DNA of 55,196 nucleotides from Bacteroidota bacterium. Its GTDB lineage: Bacteria > Bacteroidota > Ignavibacteria > OLB7. The stretch covers positions 1 through 55,196 of the forward strand of contig JAFDZV010000041.1 of the NCBI GenBank assembly GCA_018266795.1, written 5' to 3'. Both the position numbers and the translations under genes were made by a program. The notes beneath the pieces are model-generated. The model saw only the letters and a list, made by a program, of their open reading frames with translations, made no database searches and was not told where the DNA came from. Shown here piece by piece: positions 6,115 to 48,699 of this stretch (the stretch's first letter is position 1; each line of letters starts with the position of its first letter).

Positions 6115-8121
6115 ATGACACGATATCTTCGGACCAGGTTCGGAACGTGCGCTGCCTGGATAGTTGCGGCGATTATCCTGCCACTTATTGCGGGCACCGC
6201 GAGCGCACAACGATGGGAATACTTCTACGGCGGCCCCAACCTCGAGGAAGGCCACAGCGGCGTGCAGCCTGTCTCCTCGGGGGGCTACATATCCGTCGCG
6301 GAGACGCAGTCCACGCCCACTGTCGACATCTACGTTGTTCGAACGGACGATCGCGGCGGCAAGTTCTGGGAGGCGACCTACGATATCGCCGGCAACGTCG
6401 ATATCCCCTACGACGTCCTGGAGCTCGCCAACGGGAACTTTGCCATCACCGGCTACACCAGCAACGTGGTGAACGGGAATGCACGGCGCGACATGTTCAT
6501 CCTGATCCTCGACCGCTGCGGCGCGGTCGTCAAGTTCAGGACATTCGGCACACCGGACTACGAGGAGGTGGGATACGACATCATCGAGACCCGCACGGGG
6601 AACCCGAACTACGGAACGCACGTGGGCGATCTGGTTGTGGCCGGCTACACCACGTGGACGTTCCCGACGCGCGGAGCCCACGACGGCTGGCTGATTCGCG
6701 TGGACCAGAACAATCTGAACATCATCTGGTCCAAGCGCTACGAAATCGGCAATGGCCAGGAGATTGGCTCAGACGACCTCCTCTACGCCCTGGATGAATG
6801 CGTGGCATCGCCTCCGCTCGATCCGGCGAACTGCTGCACCTCCGACATCGTTGCCGTGGGGACAACGAACAGCCCGACATTCACGGCCGGAGGATACGAC
6901 GGACTGATGCTTCGCGTGGACGGGAACACGGGGCTGATTCCGCCGGGAGCTCTGGCCGGAATACATGGCGGCATCAACGATGAGTTGCTCCGCTCCGTGG
7001 AGGAACTGGAGGAACCGGCAAACCAGAACCGGGGCAACATCGTGGCCACCGGCTACACGTGGTCCACGAGCATGAGTTCGGAGGTGTACATCGTACGGAC
7101 TCCGCCGCAGGTGTGGGCACGGATCAATGACCGTACGCTCGGCGACAATCGTGATCAACCGGATGAGGGATACTGCATCCGCGAGATCCGGGCAACGGAC
7201 ATGGGCCTCACCGCAGGCAACCTGATCGTGACCGGATACGTGACCACCCCGGCGGCGCAGATTCCCGGCTGGGGAGGCCAGGATCTGTTCCTTCAGGAGT
7301 ACCAGGGGAACCTGGCGCCTGTTGCGCCAACAACACGCATCTACGGCGGCGCGGGCAACGACTACGGATGGTCCTGCTTCCCGGTTGGCCAGAAGATGAA
7401 CTGCCGCACGCCCGGCTTCGTTGCGTGCGGAACGTCCAACAGTCCGCTCTGCAACCCGCCCAACCTTCCGCAGATGTACCTGCTGAAGACCAACAACGTG
7501 CGGAGCACCAACTGCAAGGATGTCAACCTGAACAAGGTGGACCTGCAGCCCAACCTCCCGTGGAACGGCTTGAAGGCGAATATCCTGGACCTGAACTACT
7601 ACTACGATACCACGGTAAAGCGCACCTGCCAGAACTGGGGATGCCTGATCTGCGTTACTGCGGACTTCACGGTGATCTGCCCGATACCGCCGTGCCCGGC
7701 CGGCAACTGCGGCGTGAACGATACAACGCCGCCGCGCGACACATTGATCACCGACACAACGCGGCACGACACCATCATCAATCCGCCGCCGTGCCCGCCC
7801 TACTGCGACTCCACGCCGCCGATGAAGCCGGCGCCCGGAGTTTCCGGAGCAGCCGATGCATCCAACAGGCTGGTGGTGATCCCCAATCCGGTGACCGTCG
7901 GCCAGCCGTTCGCAATCGACATGGCAATCGATCACGATGCCCGGGTGGACATCACCGTCACCGACATGAACGGGGAACTGGTTACCGAGAAAGCCGGCCA
8001 GTACACGGCCGGCAACCGGCAGTTCCCGATCGAGACGGACCAGTGGCTCCCCGGCGCGTATCTGGTGAAGATATCGGACGGCACGCACTCCGTCACCGCG
8101 AAGGTGGTGATGACGAAGTAG
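6115..8121 (+). CDS. Secreted beta-propeller protein with T9SS sorting tail
   Basis: This 668-residue protein has an N-terminal signal peptide (hydrophobic residues 13-29, cleavage at ASA-Q). Residues 32-470 hold repeated units of the type 'GGY..V.ET.S....DIYVVRTD..G...W..TY' and 'G.N..ITGYT.S...', the delta-60/SBBP-like propeller pattern common in FCB secreted proteins. A Thr/Asp/Pro-rich linker (near residues 540-575, with cysteine pairs) leads to a C-terminal module beginning VVIPNPVTVGQPF and ending in GAYLVKISDG...KVV. This is a T9SS sorting domain. It is paralogous in style to the minus-strand protein at 19730-21283 and the protein at 50202-51416. No catalytic residues are recognisable; the function is unknown beyond an exported surface or matrix protein. 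Confidence 0.9.
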   Translation: MTRYLRTRFGTCAAWIVAAIILPLIAGTASAQRWEYFYGGPNLEEGHSGVQPVSSGGYISVAETQSTPTVDIYVVRTDDRGGKFWEATYDIAGNVDIPYDVLELANGNFAITGYTSNVVNGNARRDMFILILDRCGAVVKFRTFGTPDYEEVGYDIIETRTGNPNYGTHVGDLVVAGYTTWTFPTRGAHDGWLIRVDQNNLNIIWSKRYEIGNGQEIGSDDLLYALDECVASPPLDPANCCTSDIVAVGTTNSPTFTAGGYDGLMLRVDGNTGLIPPGALAGIHGGINDELLRSVEELEEPANQNRGNIVATGYTWSTSMSSEVYIVRTPPQVWARINDRTLGDNRDQPDEGYCIREIRATDMGLTAGNLIVTGYVTTPAAQIPGWGGQDLFLQEYQGNLAPVAPTTRIYGGAGNDYGWSCFPVGQKMNCRTPGFVACGTSNSPLCNPPNLPQMYLLKTNNVRSTNCKDVNLNKVDLQPNLPWNGLKANILDLNYYYDTTVKRTCQNWGCLICVTADFTVICPIPPCPAGNCGVNDTTPPRDTLITDTTRHDTIINPPPCPPYCDSTPPMKPAPGVSGAADASNRLVVIPNPVTVGQPFAIDMAIDHDARVDITVTDMNGELVTEKAGQYTAGNRQFPIETDQWLPGAYLVKISDGTHSVTAKVVMTK

Positions 8122-8954: not shown

Positions 8955-9118
8955 CCTCAGCCGCAGTTGAAGGCACTCGTGGCGCCACGTTGAAGGTACC
9001 GGCTCCGGATGGAAACCTGCCGGATGCTATTTTGGCAAAACGACGTATAGGCGATGCGGATTGCGAAAGGCTTTGCCAACAGATTCGTCACGGTGCAACC
9101 CAATCGGGAACGAACTTC

Positions 9119-10828
9119 ATGTCTGCTATCAATTTCAATACAGGCAATCAGACCCTTCGCCAGTTGCTGGGCAATGGCATAACCTATCGTGTGCCACGGT
9201 TCCAACGTGATTATAGCTGGACGCAGGACGAATGGGACGACCTGTGGCAGGATATACAGGGCTCGTTGGCACCGGGCGGAGAGCCACTTCACTATATGGG
9301 ATATCTGGTATTGCAGACGCTGGACAACAAGGTATTCGAAGTGATCGACGGCCAGCAGCGCCTCACAACGTTGAGCCTTCTGGTTCTGGCAGTACTCAAG
9401 GCATTGCAGGACCTGGTAGACAACCAGATGGAACCGGACAATAATCGGCGGCGCATCGAAGGGCTGCGTAATGCGTACATCGGATTTCTGGACCCTGTAA
9501 CCCTGATCCCGCAGTCCAAGCTGACACTGAACCGCAACAACGACGCCTATTACAAGGACTATCTGGTCCCCCTGGCCAAGCTGCCGCAGCGAGGGATTCT
9601 GGCATCGGAGCGATTGCTGCGCCAGGCATTCGAATGGTTCTACCGTCAGGTCCGGAGCATGTACGGCGAACTCCGCGATGGTGCCGCGCTTGCGCGCTTC
9701 ATCGACGAGTTGGCGGACAAGCTCTTCTTCACCGTCATTACCGTTACCGACGAGTTGAACGCATTCAAGGTGTTCGAGACCCTGAATGCACGCGGCGTGC
9801 GACTTTCCCCAACCGACCTGTTGAAGAACTATCTATTCTCGGTAGTACATCGGGAGTCATCACATTCGAATGAGATAGAGACGCTCGAGCGTCGATGGGA
9901 CACTATAGTCGGACGGCTCGGAGGCGATAGTTTCTCGGCCTTCCTGCGCACGCATTGGAACAGCCGACGCCGTTTTGTGCGTGAGGCAGACCTGTTCAAG
10001 ACGATTCGTTCCGGCACTCCCAACAAGGCACGGGTGTTCGAATTGATGCGTGAGATGGAGGAGGACGTGGATGTGTACGCGGCACTCTCCAGCCCGGAGG
10101 ACGTTCTCTGGGACCCAATACAGCGGCAACATATCAGTGAGCTGCGCATGTTCAGTGTACGGCAGCCATGGCCACTGCTATTGGCAGCGCACCGAGCTTT
10201 CGATGCCGATGGATTTGCACAGATACTTCGCACCTGCAGCATCATCTCCTTCCGGTACAATGTGATCGGCGGGCTGGCGACCAACGACCAGGAGCGCACG
10301 TACAACTCTGTCGCTCAACGTATCGCATCCGGAGAGCTCGCAACGCCGGCCGATTGCATCCGCGCATTGGCACCTGTGTACATCGGCGATGAGCCGTTCC
10401 GTTCCGCTTTTGCCGACAAGGCGCTGCGCACCACAGCGGCCCGAAACAAGAGCGTGGTTCGCTACATTCTTTTTTCGCTGGAGCGCCATACCGGCGGAAT
10501 CAAACATGATGCGGACAGCCCTTCCTACACACTCGAGCATGTGCTCCCCGAGAGTCCGGAGCAGCACTGGCCTACGTTCAGCGATGACGAAGCCGATGAG
10601 ATGGTCTATCGCCTGGGCAACATGACGTTGCTCGAGGACGGACCGAACCACAAACTCGGCAACAAGCCATTCGACAAAAAGAAAGCCGTGTACGAACGGA
10701 GTGCATTCGAGATCACACGGCGTATCGCGGCCGAGAATGCCGACTGGACTCCGGAGAGGCTGGCGGAGCGGCAGCGATGGATGGCTCGCCAGGCAACCAG
10801 CATCTGGCGCGTGGCTCAACTGGCCTAG
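9119..10828 (+). CDS. DUF262 + DUF1524 protein, GmrSD-type (putative phage-defence nuclease)
   Basis: The 569-residue protein is called from the ATG at 9119 (MSAINFNTG), because the 43 in-frame codons before it do not match the family's usual start. The N-terminal DUF262 domain has its hallmark RVPRFQRDYSW at residues 24-34 and DGQQR at 77-81, the ParB-like nucleotide-binding motifs. The C-terminal DUF1524 (His-Me/HNH-like) domain has LEHVLPE (His about residue 474) followed by GNMTLLED and NHKLGNKPFDKKK. Known relatives such as GmrSD and BrxU are type IV restriction enzymes cutting modified phage DNA; others are uncharacterised defence genes. It is a single-gene version with no partner methylase. 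Its base composition looks less GC-rich than its neighbours, suggesting horizontal transfer. The target specificity is unknown. Confidence 0.9.
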   Translation: MSAINFNTGNQTLRQLLGNGITYRVPRFQRDYSWTQDEWDDLWQDIQGSLAPGGEPLHYMGYLVLQTLDNKVFEVIDGQQRLTTLSLLVLAVLKALQDLVDNQMEPDNNRRRIEGLRNAYIGFLDPVTLIPQSKLTLNRNNDAYYKDYLVPLAKLPQRGILASERLLRQAFEWFYRQVRSMYGELRDGAALARFIDELADKLFFTVITVTDELNAFKVFETLNARGVRLSPTDLLKNYLFSVVHRESSHSNEIETLERRWDTIVGRLGGDSFSAFLRTHWNSRRRFVREADLFKTIRSGTPNKARVFELMREMEEDVDVYAALSSPEDVLWDPIQRQHISELRMFSVRQPWPLLLAAHRAFDADGFAQILRTCSIISFRYNVIGGLATNDQERTYNSVAQRIASGELATPADCIRALAPVYIGDEPFRSAFADKALRTTAARNKSVVRYILFSLERHTGGIKHDADSPSYTLEHVLPESPEQHWPTFSDDEADEMVYRLGNMTLLEDGPNHKLGNKPFDKKKAVYERSAFEITRRIAAENADWTPERLAERQRWMARQATSIWRVAQLA

Positions 10829-11583: not shown

Positions 11584-12093
11584 TCAGCCCCCGAACAACG
11601 CCATCTCCAGCAGCATGGAGATGAGAACGAAGAGCACGAGGAACCCGGCAGCGGAGGTGACGCTGGTCCCTCCCCGGCGCTCCAGCTCCCGGAGATGAGC
11701 GTTCTCATCGAGGCGCTGCGCGCGCACGTCGCCGATGATGCCGAGCACGTGCGAGAGGTAGAGACGATTGGCAAGGAAGCCGCACACTGCGCCCACAACC
11801 AGGCCGCCGATCAGCACCGTGGACTGCGGCGGCCCCTGCTCCTTGAGGACGTTCAGGAAGATTGCATCCTCGATGAGCGCCTCGGCGATGATGGCGGCAT
11901 ACAGAATGAACATCGCCCTGTACACCTTCCGGTAGCCCATCCAGAGGGTGCAGGCAAGGAAGGCCGCGATGTTGAACCCGAAGGAGCGGGACGTCCCGTT
12001 GATAACGGGTTCCCAGATGCGAATGTAGTATTCGCCGTTGCGGCCCAGAACCGCGCGCAGTTCCTGCTCTGTGGGAATCAACGCGTTCGGCAT
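11584..12093 (-). CDS. DUF2628-family membrane protein
   Basis: This 169-residue protein has the DUF2628 signature near residues 37-60: 'F(G)FNIAAFLACTLWMGYRKVYR'. In the family this reads FNWAAFFFGPLWLLYRKMY. Hydrophobic segments lie near residues 38-55, 60-78, 92-108 and 148-167. A soluble acidic loop (RAQRLDENAHLRELERR) precedes the last segment. It probably sits in the inner membrane; the family has no assigned function. The start ATG at 12093 is preceded by a GGAGGA ribosome-binding site. It stands alone on the minus strand, divergent from the metalloprotease gene. Confidence 0.82.
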   Translation of the reverse strand: MPNALIPTEQELRAVLGRNGEYYIRIWEPVINGTSRSFGFNIAAFLACTLWMGYRKVYRAMFILYAAIIAEALIEDAIFLNVLKEQGPPQSTVLIGGLVVGAVCGFLANRLYLSHVLGIIGDVRAQRLDENAHLRELERRGGTSVTSAAGFLVLFVLISMLLEMALFGG

Positions 12094-12316: not shown

Positions 12317-13297
12317 ATGCGAGCGACCATTGTGCTGATACTATCCGCCCTGCTGTCTGCCGGATGCGACCGCAACGAACCTCGCACCAACGATGGAGCC
12401 GGCCTCCAGCATGCAGCCTCCGCTCCGCGCAACGATGAGATATCGAACAGGCAGGATAGCGCGCGGATCGCATCACTGCGGCACTACATGGAGACGGTGC
12501 GGCCGCTCCACCGGCCGCCAGGTCCGGCTCGCGCGGGCGACTGGCTGGCGACCTACCACGAGCCGGGACAGAGTTTCGGCGAGTATCTGGCGTGCGATCC
12601 GATTCTTCCGTCGGCCGCACGCAGCGTGATACACGTGCTTCCAATCGGCAGGTTCACTGCAACGCAACGTCGCGTGATCGCGCTTGCCGCGGAGTACATT
12701 CATCTCTGCTACGGTCTTCCCGTTACGGTGGATCGCGGCCTCCCCACTGCTGCAATCCCGCGGGGCGCCATGCGGCACAGCGCACGATGGGGCACGCAGA
12801 TCCGCACCGCCTGGATCATCGACTCGCTACTGCGCCCGCGCCTGCCGCGGGATGCGATGTCGCTGATCGCATTCACCGATGCGGACCTGTGGCCCGGCGG
12901 CGACATGAACTTCGTGTTCGGCCAGGGCTCCACACGGCTTCGCGTGGGCGTGTGGTCGCTGTTCAGGTTCGGAGGCCCGAACGCCGCGGGGAGCGCCTTC
13001 GCGCTGCTTCTTGCGCGCACACTGAAGTGCGCCACGCACGAGCTGGGGCACATGTTCTCCTTGCAGCACTGCACGCGCTACGAGTGCAACATGAACGGAT
13101 GCAACAGCCTGGAGGAAATGGACCGCCACCCCCTTGCATTCTGCCCGGAGTGCGCCGCAAAGATCTTGTGGGCCACGGGCATCGATCCGCGCACGCGCTG
13201 CGCCGGGCTGGCCGGCTTCTGCGAGGCGCACGGATTGGGGCAGGATGCGACGCTGCTCCGCACGGAGCTGAACAGACTTGCGGGCTTACAGCCGTAA
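12317..13297 (+). CDS. Archaemetzincin-like zinc metalloprotease, lipoprotein
   Basis: This 326-residue protein starts with a lipoprotein signal peptide (lipobox LSAGC, Cys17), so it would be an envelope lipoprotein. Residues 241-251 read HELGHMFSLQH, the HExxHxx(G)xxH metzincin zinc site with Glu242 as the base. They are followed by Cys252, Cys257, Met259 and the pair Cys276/Cys279. That spacing (HC-x4-C-x-M ... C-x2-C) is specific to archaemetzincins, as is the flanking phrase NSLEEMDRHPLAFCPEC. Human AMZ1/AMZ2 share it. The Gly normally between the zinc ligands is Ser248. The domain spans roughly residues 100-300. Archaemetzincins are peptidases with few known substrates and occur sporadically in bacteria. 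Lipidation is unusual and implies action outside the cytoplasm. Confidence 0.9.
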   Translation: MRATIVLILSALLSAGCDRNEPRTNDGAGLQHAASAPRNDEISNRQDSARIASLRHYMETVRPLHRPPGPARAGDWLATYHEPGQSFGEYLACDPILPSAARSVIHVLPIGRFTATQRRVIALAAEYIHLCYGLPVTVDRGLPTAAIPRGAMRHSARWGTQIRTAWIIDSLLRPRLPRDAMSLIAFTDADLWPGGDMNFVFGQGSTRLRVGVWSLFRFGGPNAAGSAFALLLARTLKCATHELGHMFSLQHCTRYECNMNGCNSLEEMDRHPLAFCPECAAKILWATGIDPRTRCAGLAGFCEAHGLGQDATLLRTELNRLAGLQP

Positions 13298-13563: not shown

Positions 13564-14313
13564 ATGGCGTTTGAAAAGTCAGGCAACCCGGCGCTCCGGC
13601 GCACTACCTTCTCGGGATTCGAGCCGCTCTCGGCAACGGACCAGGCGATGTCGCTGCACGGCACGATCAACAAGACCGCGATGCTGCTGGCGATCACGGC
13701 CATCACGGCGCTGTGTACGTTCGATCGCATCGGCACGGTGTACAGCTTCCAGCAGGTGGCGCCGCTCCTCTACACGGGCGCAATCGGCGGTCTCGTGCTC
13801 TGCATAGTCATCGTGCTCCGAGGCACGGCCGCCCCGTATCTGGCGCCGGTGTACGCGGCACTGGAGGGACTGTTCCTCGGAAGCGTGACGGCACTCCTGG
13901 AGGATCGCTTCAGCGGGATCGCGATGCAGACGCTGCTCGTCACGCTCGGCATCTTCGTGGTGGTTCTGCTGCTGTATCGCTTCGAGATCATCAAGCCCAC
14001 GGAACGCTTCCGGATGATCGTGGTCTCCGCCACGGCCGGGCTTGCGTTCTACTATCTCATGAGCTTCTGCCTCTCGTTCGCCGGCCTCCACCTTCCGCTG
14101 ATGCACGAGAACAGCACCTATGGAATTCTCTTCAGTCTCTTCGCCATCGTGATCGCATCGATGAATCTGGTGCTGGACTCCGAGTTCATCCGGCGCGGCG
14201 TGGAGATGCGCGTGCCGAAATACATGGAGTGGTACGGCGCGTTCAGCCTGCTGGTGACTCTGGTGTGGCTCTATGTGGAGATCCTTCGTCTGCTTGCGCG
14301 GCGCAGGGGTTGA
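13564..14313 (+). CDS. Bax inhibitor-1 / YccA-family membrane protein
   Basis: This 249-residue protein starts at the ATG at 13564 (MAFEKSGNP), which has an AGGTAAGGA site just before it. It has seven hydrophobic segments. Early family features are the phrase TRTTFSG/ATDQAMSLHGTINKT and 'LAPVYAALEGLFLGSVTALLE' in the third segment. The C-terminus reads WYGAFSLLVTLVWLYVEILRLLA, the family's conserved last helix with acidic residues used in the pH-sensitive calcium leak pore of YetJ. It would be an inner-membrane protein with a calcium or stress-related role. It stands alone; repeat copy B occupies its leader. Confidence 0.92.
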   Translation: MAFEKSGNPALRRTTFSGFEPLSATDQAMSLHGTINKTAMLLAITAITALCTFDRIGTVYSFQQVAPLLYTGAIGGLVLCIVIVLRGTAAPYLAPVYAALEGLFLGSVTALLEDRFSGIAMQTLLVTLGIFVVVLLLYRFEIIKPTERFRMIVVSATAGLAFYYLMSFCLSFAGLHLPLMHENSTYGILFSLFAIVIASMNLVLDSEFIRRGVEMRVPKYMEWYGAFSLLVTLVWLYVEILRLLARRRG

Positions 14314-22033: not shown

Positions 22034-23239
22034 ATGCCTACACGAAACCGCCGGCGCGCTGCCCAGGCTCTGCTCAATACATCGCTCGGCTCGCGAATCC
22101 TGGAAACGCCGCTGCCGCCGGTACTTGGCGCATGCAGGCGGCATTCGCTCACTCTGGAGAGCGCCGTCTTCGATTTCTATACCACGTCAACATCGACACA
22201 CAATCCGATTCCGGGGCCGGATGCCAACGTCTGGTTCGGTGTCGGCAGCACCGTTGGATCGTTCAACATCGGCCTGCAGGCCGTGCAGGAGTGCGGGCCT
22301 GCATCCGGATTATCGCAGGGGATCGTGGCGGACAACGCGGGCAATATCTGGTTCGGCCAAAGCTTCGGGGCCAACCAGATCGCGCGTTCCAGCACCGGCT
22401 GCGCAATCACCACCTACCCCACGGCGGGCGCAACGGTGGATCTGATCCTCGGGCCGGACGGAAACATCTACTTCAGCGATGGCGGCGCCAGGCTCGGCAG
22501 CGCCACACCGGGGGGCCTGATCACGGAGTTCCCCACCACCTACGGCACTGTGGATCCCACCGCAGGTCCCGGCAACACCATCTGGTTCGGTGAGTTCGGC
22601 CCGAGAGTGGGCCGGCTTTCGCTGGACGGAAGTCCGCTGCAGGAATGGACCGTAACCGCGGCCGCCATGGCCGGGAGCCTGGTCACCACGCCGGACGGAT
22701 CGGTCTGGTACGGTACGGACGTCATCATCGGCCGCATCACACCGGCGGGGCAGGTGGAGGAATATCCCATCGGCCGCGCAGGCGCATCCAACCTGCTGTA
22801 CGGCCCGGACGGCAACGTCTGGTTCGCCTGTCAGTCAACCCCGCAGGTAGGAATGGTTACCCCCGCGGGGCAGGTGTCGCTCTACGATATCGACGACCTG
22901 CCGATGGGGATGACATTCGGCCCGGACAACAAGCTCTATGTAGGGCAGTTGAGTTACTTCCTCTCCGTGGTGGATCTGGGCGGCTCGGTGAGCAATGTGC
23001 CGCTTACCGGAGCGATCCCGTACGCACCGCATGTAGGCCCGGACGGCAATATCTGGTTCGGCGGCAACCCCTGGCTGAATCCGGGTGTGCCCACGTTCAC
23101 GGGCCGCATGACGCCCGGGGGAGTGCTGACGGAATTCCAGACGTACGGCTATCCGAACAGCTTCCTCAACGGATACGACGGCGTAACCATGTACATGGGG
23201 ATGAGCTCTGCCACACTGGGAGTGGCACATGTCATATAA
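22034..23239 (+). CDS. Streptogramin-lyase-like beta-propeller, first tandem copy
   Basis: This 401-residue protein starts after GGAGAAGATC. It is made of about seven blades, each with a strand like GPDGNIWFG or NVWFAC and then a turn G(R)I.P.G.V.EYP. This is the NHL/virginiamycin-B-lyase (Vgb) pattern. Vgb opens streptogramin B rings using a His and a Glu pair. Here the phrases read WFGEFGPRVG and WFGGNPWLN, and I cannot see the expected His-Glu pair. Antibiotic inactivation is therefore not supported. It has no signal peptide. It is followed after 51 bases by a second copy with its own ribosome-binding site, so this is a tandem duplication and probably one operon. Confidence 0.88.
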   Translation: MPTRNRRRAAQALLNTSLGSRILETPLPPVLGACRRHSLTLESAVFDFYTTSTSTHNPIPGPDANVWFGVGSTVGSFNIGLQAVQECGPASGLSQGIVADNAGNIWFGQSFGANQIARSSTGCAITTYPTAGATVDLILGPDGNIYFSDGGARLGSATPGGLITEFPTTYGTVDPTAGPGNTIWFGEFGPRVGRLSLDGSPLQEWTVTAAAMAGSLVTTPDGSVWYGTDVIIGRITPAGQVEEYPIGRAGASNLLYGPDGNVWFACQSTPQVGMVTPAGQVSLYDIDDLPMGMTFGPDNKLYVGQLSYFLSVVDLGGSVSNVPLTGAIPYAPHVGPDGNIWFGGNPWLNPGVPTFTGRMTPGGVLTEFQTYGYPNSFLNGYDGVTMYMGMSSATLGVAHVI

Positions 23240-23290
23240 ATCCGATTGACGCAGTCAACCAACGTACCACAGCATTCACTGGAGAGGATC

Positions 23291-24499
23291 ATGCCTTTAC
23301 GCAATCACCTTCGCTTCACGGACATCATGCTCAACAGCGCTGCGGGCGCGGCGATGCGGGCACAGCAGCTTCCTCCGGCACTCGCCGCAAGCACGTTGCA
23401 CTCCATCGTTTCAGCCGGGGTGACGTTCGATTTCTATCAGACCAGCACGATCACCGTGGGTCCGATTCTCGGTCCGAACAACAACATCTGGTTCGCCGTG
23501 GGAACCTCCGTCGGGCAGTTCGTGCTTCCGCAGAAGACGATTCAGGAATGCCCCCCAACGCAGGCCGGGCTTGCGCAGGAGCTTGCAGTGGACCAGACCG
23601 GCAACATCTGGTTCGGCATCAGCTTCGGGGCACCGGTGATCGGCCGGAGCACCCCCGGCTGCAATGTGACAACCTACCCCACCAACGGCCCCACCAGCAA
23701 TGTGGTTCTCGGGCCGAACGGGAACATCTACTTCAGCGATCAGGGACAGAGGATCGGAAGCGCAACGCCAACCGGCATCATCACGGAGTTCCCCACGACC
23801 TTTGCCACCGTTGATCCGATCGTCGGTCCCGGCAACGCCATCTGGTTCGGCGAGTTCGGCCCCAGGATCGGACGGCTCTCGATTCCGAGCAATCAGGTGA
23901 CGGAGTGGACGGTGACGGCGGCGGCCATTGCATCAAGCCTGCTGGCCACGCCTGACGGCTCGGTCTGGTACGGCACGGATCTCACCATCGGCCGCATCAC
24001 GCCGGGTGGCCAGGTGCAGGAGTACCCGATCGGAAACGCCGGCGCGTTCAATCTGCTCCTCGGCCCCGACGGCAACGTCTGGTTCGGCTGCCAGTTCAGT
24101 GCACAGGTGGGAAAGGTGACGCCGGCCGGGCAGGTATCGCTCTACAACACGAACGATCTTCCGATGGGCCTCGCCTTCGGTTCGGACAACAAGCTGTACG
24201 TTGGCCAGTTGAGCTACTTCCTCTCGGTGGTGGATCTGAACGGGAACGTGAACAATCTGCCGCTCACCGGCGCGATTCCCTATCCGCCGCATCTGGGGCC
24301 GGACGGGAACATCTGGTTCAGCGGCAATCCGTATTTGAGCCCGGGTGTCTCCTCGTTCATCGGACGCATCACCCCCGGAGGCGTGCTTACGGAGTTCCAG
24401 ACCAGCGCCTATCCGAACAGCTTCCTGAACGCGCCGGATGGTTCCGCCATCTACATGGGGATGAACACGGCCCGCTTCGGCGTGATCAATCTGGTGTAG
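23291..24499 (+). CDS. Streptogramin-lyase-like beta-propeller, second tandem copy
   Basis: The 402-residue protein is started at the ATG at 23291, with GGAGAGG at the right spacing; the 15 upstream in-frame codons are not needed. It aligns over its full length with the preceding protein, sharing long phrases such as SVWYGTD..IGRITP.GQV and LYVGQLSYFLSVVDL. The N-terminal 40 residues differ more (MPLRNHLRFTDIML). It has the same seven-blade Vgb/NHL pattern and the same lack of a clear catalytic pair. The divergence is moderate, so the duplication is not recent. Function unknown; ligand binding or signalling is possible. Confidence 0.88.
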   Translation: MPLRNHLRFTDIMLNSAAGAAMRAQQLPPALAASTLHSIVSAGVTFDFYQTSTITVGPILGPNNNIWFAVGTSVGQFVLPQKTIQECPPTQAGLAQELAVDQTGNIWFGISFGAPVIGRSTPGCNVTTYPTNGPTSNVVLGPNGNIYFSDQGQRIGSATPTGIITEFPTTFATVDPIVGPGNAIWFGEFGPRIGRLSIPSNQVTEWTVTAAAIASSLLATPDGSVWYGTDLTIGRITPGGQVQEYPIGNAGAFNLLLGPDGNVWFGCQFSAQVGKVTPAGQVSLYNTNDLPMGLAFGSDNKLYVGQLSYFLSVVDLNGNVNNLPLTGAIPYPPHLGPDGNIWFSGNPYLSPGVSSFIGRITPGGVLTEFQTSAYPNSFLNAPDGSAIYMGMNTARFGVINLV

Positions 24500-46038: not shown

Positions 46039-48699
46039 ATGAATGCCGCCGATAGATGGCCTGTCAAGGGCAACTGGCTTGCGATCAACGCATCGAGCGT
46101 TACCGAGGATGGAAGCGCCATCACCCGCCCGGGTTACGACCTCACCGGCTGGATACCCGCCGTTGTTCCCGGCACCGTGCTCACAACGCTGGTAGCGAAC
46201 GGCGTCTATCTGGACCCGTATTACAGCACCAACATTTCCAGGATCCCGGACGCCTCGAAGGCCGGTGTGGACTTCTACACCTACTGGTTCTACACATCGT
46301 TCACGCTGGGGGAGGCTTCCGCCGGAAGCCGGATCTGGCTGGAGTTCAGAGGAATCAACTATCGAGCGAACGTCTTCTTCAACGGAACGCAGCTCAACGC
46401 GACGACGCTGGAGGGAATGTTCCAGCGATACCTGTTCGACATCACCGAGCTCGTTGACGCAGGGAGCGAAAACGCGATCGCCGTCTGGACGCAGCCCCCC
46501 GATCCGCCCGGAGTGCCGGGCGGCAACGGCGGCCAGGACCCGAACATCGGCAACAACGTGACGATGCGCTATACGGTTGGATGGGACTGGGTGGAGCCGA
46601 TTCCCGATCGGAGCACCGGCATCTGGGATGCCGTTACGCTTTCCGTTACCGGTCCGGTGCGGCTTGCAAACCCGCACGTGGTGACAACGGTGCCGGGAGT
46701 GCGAATGCCTCAGGGCGCGCAGGCTCCTGCGCAGATCGCGCTCTCCGTCGAGATCACGAACGCATCGAGCGTTCAGCAGAGCGGCGCACTCATGTACTCA
46801 TTCAACGGTGTTCAGTTCGCGCAGTATCTGATACTGGAGCCGGGAGAGACGAGCACGGTCACGTTCGAGGAACAGACCATCGAGAACCCGGAGCTCTGGT
46901 GGCCGATCGGCATCGGCGCGCAGCCGCTGCTCCCGCTGGAGATTCAGTTCAGCGCGAAGGGCTACGGCATCTCCGACACGGCGCACATTGATGTGGGAAT
47001 CCGGACGATCACCTCCTGGATCGACTCCACGACCGGCGGAAAGGTGATCGCGGTGAACGGGCAGCAGCTGTTCATCCGCGGAGCGAACTGGATCGGGACC
47101 GATGCGATGCTCCGCTACACAACCGATCCGAAGCGCTACCGCGACGAGGTGCGCATGCACGCGGAGATGAATGTGAACATGATTCGCGTCTGGGGCGGCG
47201 GTATTGCCGAGCGGCCGGAGTTCTACGATGCATGCGACCGCTACGGTATCCTGGTGATGCAGGACTTCTGGATCTCCGGCGAATTCACCGGCCCGTTCCC
47301 GGCCGGCTGGAGCGAGACATTCCTCTCGTGCGCCCGCGACACCATCAAGCTCCTCCGCAATCATCCAAGCCTCTGCTTCTGGAGCGGCGGCAACGAGACA
47401 CCTCCACCGAACGATATCGACACATGCCTCCGCTGCTACATCACCGGCCAGCAGCAGGACGGCACCCCGTGCACGTCCGGTGAATACTCCGCGTGCGGCT
47501 CCACCGGCGTACTGGATGGAACGCGGAGCTACGTGTCGTACTCCACATCGGACGGGCTTGGCCCGGGCGACGGCCCCTACGGCATCCTGCAGCCGGCATC
47601 GTTCTTCAACATGAAGTCGTGCACGTTCAATCCGGAGGTGGGGTCGGTCGGCACGCCGGTCTACGAATCGCTGAAGCTGTTCCTTCCGCCGGCCGCGTTG
47701 GTGGACTTCCCCCGCGATCAGACGTGGAACACGACGTGGGCATTCCACAAGTACATCCCCTACTCCAACCCGCAGCAGGGCCAGCAGGTGCCGTGCCTCT
47801 ATCAATACCCAGCTCCCGTGTACGACCAGATAGCCGCATACGGCCAGCCGGAGGATACCGCAGGGTTCGCGCTTCGCGCACAGATCGTGAACTACGTGCA
47901 GTACCAGGGGCTCTTCGAAGGGTTCGGCTCCGCCATGTGGCAGTGGTACACGGGCGTGATGGTCTGGAAGTCACAGAACCCATGGCCCGGGCTGCGGGGC
48001 TCCTTCTACGACTGGTACCTGGCTCAGAACGGCGGGCTGTATGGAACCAAGCATGCCAACGAGCCGGTACACATCCTGCTCACGCAGGATACGCAGAACG
48101 TGATGGCGATCAACACCACGCCGACCTCGTTCCGGAATCTCACGGCGGAGGCAACCATCTACGATCTGCAGGGAACGAGCTACGATGCCGGCACGCAGCT
48201 CGTCGATCTTCCTGCAAACCGTGCTACACCGTTGTTCCCTCTGGTCGTTCCCTCCTCGATCGACGGCGTCTACTTCGTACAGCTCGAGCTGGCGGACGAG
48301 AGCAATGGAACGGTATCCGAAACGATCTACTGGCAGACGACAACGGCGGACTTCACCGGACTTGCAGCCCTTGCCCCGGTTACGCTGGGAGCATCGGCCG
48401 TTGGATGGTGCGACGGCGCAACATGGCACATCGCCGTGACGCTGGAGAACCCGGCGCAAACATCCGGCGGCACGATCGCGTTCTTCCTACAACTGCAGAC
48501 GATCGATCCAACCAGCGGCAACCGGGTGCTTCCATCGTTCTACAGCGACAACTGCTTCACGATGCTCCCCGGCACAGCGCGTACGATAGCCGTGGACTTC
48601 AATGCGCTCGACGTGCAACCGGCAACGTTCCCGCAGCTCTGGATCGAGGGATGGAACGTTTCGCTCGCCCAGATAGCCGTGACGTGGCAGACGGCATGA
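46039..48699 (+). CDS. Glycoside hydrolase family 2 (beta-mannosidase / exo-glucosaminidase type)
   Basis: This 886-residue protein starts at the ATG at 46039 after AGGAGGACC. It has the GH2 layout: a jelly-roll N-domain (GNWLAINASS... 'WIPAVVPGTVLTTLVANGVYLDPYY', 'FYTYWFYTSF'), an Ig-like part, and a TIM barrel from about residue 335. The barrel shows FIRGANWIGTDAML, IRVWGGGIAE and the acid/base FWSGGNE (Glu453). The nucleophile is CTFNPEVGSVGTP (Glu533), the FNxExG motif of CsxA-type exo-beta-D-glucosaminidases and beta-mannosidases. Ig-like domains follow. No signal peptide is visible, so it probably acts in the cytoplasm on imported oligosaccharides. No sugar transporter is adjacent. Confidence 0.92.
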   Translation: MNAADRWPVKGNWLAINASSVTEDGSAITRPGYDLTGWIPAVVPGTVLTTLVANGVYLDPYYSTNISRIPDASKAGVDFYTYWFYTSFTLGEASAGSRIWLEFRGINYRANVFFNGTQLNATTLEGMFQRYLFDITELVDAGSENAIAVWTQPPDPPGVPGGNGGQDPNIGNNVTMRYTVGWDWVEPIPDRSTGIWDAVTLSVTGPVRLANPHVVTTVPGVRMPQGAQAPAQIALSVEITNASSVQQSGALMYSFNGVQFAQYLILEPGETSTVTFEEQTIENPELWWPIGIGAQPLLPLEIQFSAKGYGISDTAHIDVGIRTITSWIDSTTGGKVIAVNGQQLFIRGANWIGTDAMLRYTTDPKRYRDEVRMHAEMNVNMIRVWGGGIAERPEFYDACDRYGILVMQDFWISGEFTGPFPAGWSETFLSCARDTIKLLRNHPSLCFWSGGNETPPPNDIDTCLRCYITGQQQDGTPCTSGEYSACGSTGVLDGTRSYVSYSTSDGLGPGDGPYGILQPASFFNMKSCTFNPEVGSVGTPVYESLKLFLPPAALVDFPRDQTWNTTWAFHKYIPYSNPQQGQQVPCLYQYPAPVYDQIAAYGQPEDTAGFALRAQIVNYVQYQGLFEGFGSAMWQWYTGVMVWKSQNPWPGLRGSFYDWYLAQNGGLYGTKHANEPVHILLTQDTQNVMAINTTPTSFRNLTAEATIYDLQGTSYDAGTQLVDLPANRATPLFPLVVPSSIDGVYFVQLELADESNGTVSETIYWQTTTADFTGLAALAPVTLGASAVGWCDGATWHIAVTLENPAQTSGGTIAFFLQLQTIDPTSGNRVLPSFYSDNCFTMLPGTARTIAVDFNALDVQPATFPQLWIEGWNVSLAQIAVTWQTA

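Follow-up and report, generated by a model that had tools for sequence, protein, structure and literature searches.

The 55,196-nucleotide stretch of DNA analysed here, which we refer to as the window, carries on its plus strand an intact open reading frame that starts with an ATG at position 12317, closes with a stop codon ending at 13297 and encodes 326 residues counted from the first ATG. We assign this frame to a long-form archaemetzincin (Peptidase M54), based on the reading frame itself, Pfam and phmmer searches and the predicted fold of the product. The protein matched PF07998 (Peptidase_M54) with 50.8 bits (E 2.7e-13), above the curated Pfam cut-off of 24.4 bits, and the same family was matched by all 41 of the 41 aligned members. 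A phmmer search connected it to the archaemetzincin 3zvs (E 2.4e-14), and a profile search of the PDB returned 2x7m (8.1e-25) and 4axq (3.1e-24). The archaemetzincin subfamily model of NCBIfam, NF033823, gave 95.3 bits, which is below its curated cut-off of 145; judged by these sequence models, the product is a relative of that subfamily and no member of it.

The gene stands alone. A DUF2628 gene is located on the other, minus strand (11584-12093), and a Bax-inhibitor-1-like membrane protein (BaxI_1, E 6.8e-67) is encoded directly downstream (13579-14313). An operon with these neighbours is unsupported, and searches of four genomes from the same family recovered neither of the two flanking genes. 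Conserved neighbour genes were absent beyond close relatives: an all-against-all comparison of flanking open reading frames gave shadow frames overlapping the gene itself and small three-locus sets among close relatives. Scans for promoters and terminators showed nothing above chance.

Domain organisation and the zinc motif

The structure was predicted with AlphaFold2 using an alignment of 40 long-form proteins. This resulted in a model with a mean pLDDT of 92.5 and a pTM of 0.88, which is weak only over the first ~20 residues past the signal. The catalytic domain (residues 100-289, corresponding to model residues 83-272; 12614-13183, plus strand) is predicted to have the archaemetzincin fold. 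Using VIA-align, the best matches among solved structures were AmzA of A. fulgidus (4axq; Z 19.1, 2.1 Å over 163 residues), AmzA of M. kandleri (Z 18.4) and the M. labreanum enzyme (Z 17.0), so that 4axq, 3zvs, 2x7m and 3lmc all fall at Z 17-19. The next family, the reprolysins, followed with Z 12.1 and below, and archaemetzincins were the sole Foldseek matches with E < 0.001. Together with the Pfam match and a complete set of zinc ligands, this confident model upholds the identification as an archaemetzincin that the earlier note had based on the motif.

Two further regions flank the catalytic domain. An N-terminal module (residues 40-99; 12434-12613, plus strand), which appears as helices in the model, contains a conserved PGDWL..H.E.GQ.F motif in the alignment, with W76 and E82 invariant and Q85 nearly invariant. 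C-terminal helices are modelled for residues 291-322 (13187-13282, plus strand). Both regions fall outside the archaeal enzymes, and the structural search says little about either. The archaeal AmzA proteins (A. fulgidus 3zvs/4a3w/4axq, M. kandleri 2x7m and M. labreanum 3lmc) share the catalytic fold, the three histidines, the glutamate, the methionine and the four cysteines with a CxxC end, but they are compact, with 160-210 residues in the solved chains, and possess neither the N-terminal module nor a signal. In contrast, the long forms of Planctomycetota (L039-L067) and Bacteroidota (L025-L035; Bernardetia WP_338815796.1) resemble the window protein over its whole length with up to ~50% identity, and have in common with it the PGDWL..H.E.GQ.F motif, export signals and either serine or glycine at the variable position of the zinc motif.

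This zinc-binding motif (HELGHMFSLQHC, residues 241-252; 13037-13072, plus strand) reads, together with the cysteines that follow, H241-E242-L-G-H245-M-F-S248-L-Q-H251-C252-x4-C257-N-M259-x16-C276-x2-C279. It comprises a HEXXH element with its catalytic glutamate and a third histidine six residues on. The putative Cys4 site consists of Cys252, Cys257, Cys276 and Cys279 and is listed here together with Met259 (13070-13153, plus strand). We aligned 44 long forms, the window protein among them; H241, E242, H245, H251 and the four cysteines were invariant in all 44. The CxMx16C spacing was identical in the 44 long forms and in the 17 short relatives checked. The literature prints x17 at this place; the published M. 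kandleri numbers (C141, C160) count one fewer.

The glycine of the published HEXXHXXG consensus is absent, and Ser248 (codon 13058-13060, plus strand) stands in its place. The substitution pointed out in the earlier note is thus real, but it is no oddity, as serine is the majority residue of the branch: the 44 long forms contain 24 Ser, 17 Gly, 2 Thr and 1 Lys at this position. The 17 compact relatives of the same class have 16 Gly and 1 Asn, and archaeal AmzA has Gly. Since 28 of 61 relatives bearing the rest of the signature carry Ser, Thr, Lys or Asn, the motif glycine is, as far as these sequences indicate, not family-defining in practice. More unusual are two residues early in the catalytic core, Met197 and Gly204, where 43 of the 44 long forms have Trp and Ala, respectively. 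An extra cysteine, Cys262 (13100-13102), was observed in an NGCNSL stretch between the Cys4 ligands; most relatives have serine there (NGSNSL), and the cysteine is shared with one planctomycete protein (L001).

N-terminal export signal of the long forms

A lipoprotein signal peptide is predicted for residues 1-16 (MRATIVLILSALLSAG; 12317-12364, plus strand) from the sequence and the lipoprotein pattern. It is followed by Cys17 (12365-12367, plus strand), the predicted lipidated +1 cysteine, and then by Asp18. With a basic residue at the N-terminus, a hydrophobic region and the lipobox L-S-A-G-C17, the sequence agrees with a permissive PROSITE-style lipoprotein pattern at Cys17, and signal peptidase II (PF01252) is encoded in the same genome. 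A stricter pattern, which expects L, V, I, F, M or A at position -3, failed because of the serine there. The lipobox reported in the earlier note consequently stands in a weaker form. In bacterial lipoproteins the +1 cysteine carries a diacylglyceryl group, and palmitoylation is an inexact term for this modification.

Alternatively, the protein may not be lipidated at all, its hydrophobic N-terminus acting as a signal peptide that is cleaved off or as a membrane anchor, and Cys17 being incidental. The serine at -3 would fit this explanation, as would the several relatives whose hydrophobic N-terminus lacks a lipobox. We nevertheless consider it unlikely, as Cys17 directly follows a good hydrophobic region with glycine at -1, and clear lipoboxes are found at the same place in many relatives.

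An N-terminus suited for lipidation, treated earlier as a peculiarity of this protein, turned out to be one form of a general trait: a clear lipobox is present in many long forms from both Planctomycetota and Bacteroidota, and the remainder mostly have a hydrophobic N-terminus. An exact share of export signals is not given because a few of the long-form rows are incomplete or start too far upstream. No such N-terminal segment is present in the compact relatives, and export is thus a predicted property of the long-form branch. The window protein is accordingly an M54 member in a common exported branch and mostly ordinary, because both Ser248 and the export signal are common to many relatives in Planctomycetota and Bacteroidota.

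The earlier note had further considered bacterial, lipidated members to be undescribed; bacterial members as such are known from the literature. Both CarG of Myxococcus xanthus, which is without the catalytic glutamate, and a Flavobacterium protein appear in published work, the latter in an alignment (PMC3427221, PMC4681839), and a Bernardetia protein is annotated as archaemetzincin. A search of the open-access literature turned up no paper dealing with archaemetzincins that are exported or lipidated or that come from Planctomycetota.

Proposed function in the envelope

Together, these data point to a zinc metallopeptidase of the exported long-form M54 branch that is lipid-tethered in the envelope, a reading to which we assign a probability of about 0.72 based on the sequence and the model. 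The protein would be exported by Sec and cleaved by signal peptidase II before Cys17, and the lipidated Cys17 would anchor it to an envelope membrane, as the pattern suggests. Homology with the archaeal enzymes of solved structure suggests that H241, H245 and H251 hold the catalytic zinc and that E242 acts as general base; the zinc geometry is deduced from the fold match. Ser248 would fill the turn that takes glycine in most metzincins and keep the fold, which is plausible because serine is also found in relatives with the full set of ligands. The conserved N-terminal module would pack next to the catalytic domain, which it may gate. Within the envelope, such an enzyme would likely serve to cleave peptides or misfolded proteins.

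Activity cannot be taken as proved by an intact site, because the archaeal enzymes of M. kandleri and A. fulgidus failed to act on standard substrates despite a perfect motif (PMC3427221). AMZ-tk of T. kodakarensis, in turn, degraded casein (PMC4681839). The protein could therefore also be a non-proteolytic, zinc-binding member that has a binding or scaffolding role in the envelope, with CarG of Myxococcus xanthus as the model. CarG is likewise a bacterial archaemetzincin-like protein with four cysteines, and besides the inactive archaeal enzymes, the serine in place of glycine, the departures at Met197 and Gly204 and a weak match to the CarG-type, non-proteolytic NCBIfam model NF033824 would be in line with this possibility. 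Yet this match (36.8 bits) is far below the cut-off of 250, and CarG has glutamine for the catalytic glutamate (PMC3427221), whereas all 44 long forms, including the window protein with its Glu242, retain the glutamate. Moreover, CarG is a transcriptional factor, while the window protein is predicted to be exported. A non-proteolytic function thus seems rather unlikely, and we favour the envelope peptidase.

Cys252, Cys257, Cys276 and Cys279 could either form a structural zinc site of the Cys4 type or pair into two disulfides, like those at the corresponding place in the secreted reprolysins. This latter family (snake venom metalloproteinases, ADAMs) has the metzincin fold, provides the next-best structural matches (Z 10-12) and carries four cysteines at similar places, but shares only 10-18% sequence identity with the window protein. 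The exported branch raises the question of whether a Cys4 zinc site can persist once the protein has left the cytoplasm. The site deserves a test, since the cysteines bind zinc in the archaeal enzymes and form two disulfides in the secreted reprolysins (PMC3427221), and the proteins discussed here are predicted to be exported. It may even be speculated, although we regard this as quite improbable, that the long forms make up a functional class of their own, with the N-terminal module (Trp76, Glu82 and Gln85) keeping the enzyme latent and a change between zinc and disulfides at the Cys4 site in the envelope switching activity. Neither the function nor the substrate of archaemetzincins is settled, and the exported bacterial branch would offer new members for activity tests.

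Distribution and origin of the gene

Long forms (E < 1e-20) were detected in 67 of 392 Planctomycetota genomes and in 13 of 296 Bacteroidota genomes including that of the window (12 of 295 without it). Among 294 genomes of its own class, the window genome was the only one with a long form at this threshold. Relatives of any kind, mostly compact, occur in 47 of 99 genomes of the class, and a second M54 gene was not found in the window genome. In the tree, the window protein is placed among planctomycetal rows, the smallest set holding it having 88/92 support without being starred. The planctomycetal nearest relatives and the position as sole carrier in the class suggest lateral acquisition of the long-form gene, which is likely but not proved; the donor was probably Planctomycetota-like. 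The window gene hence adds one member, probably laterally acquired, to the branch. A phage or viral origin was rejected, as there was no match in phages or viral contigs, and so was spread by plasmids, for which there is a single plasmid record; this record is from Bernardetia, and its relative WP_338815796.1 is named archaemetzincin by RefSeq.

The same planctomycetal affinity would be seen if a planctomycete contig had contaminated the Bacteroidota assembly, without any lateral transfer, and the absence of the two tested flanking genes from the four genomes of the same family could be read in this way. Such a contamination is, however, very unlikely, because type IX secretion sorting domains occur in at least 100 other genes of the genome, one such domain is encoded on this contig (7879-8109), and G+C is even across the window (60-65%). 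Together, these observations agree with Bacteroidota as the phylum.

The sorting domain belongs to the C-terminus of a 668 aa protein (6115-8121). Elsewhere in the window, a GmrSD-type restriction endonuclease protein with GmrSD_N and GmrSD_C domains (8990-10828) is likely a defence gene, and two successive beta-propeller proteins match the virginiamycin B lyase family (22034-24499). Finally, positions 46039-48699 encode a member of glycoside hydrolase family 2 that contains an exo-beta-D-glucosaminidase Ig-fold domain; one close relative, 41% identical, occurs in a different family of the class (G016).
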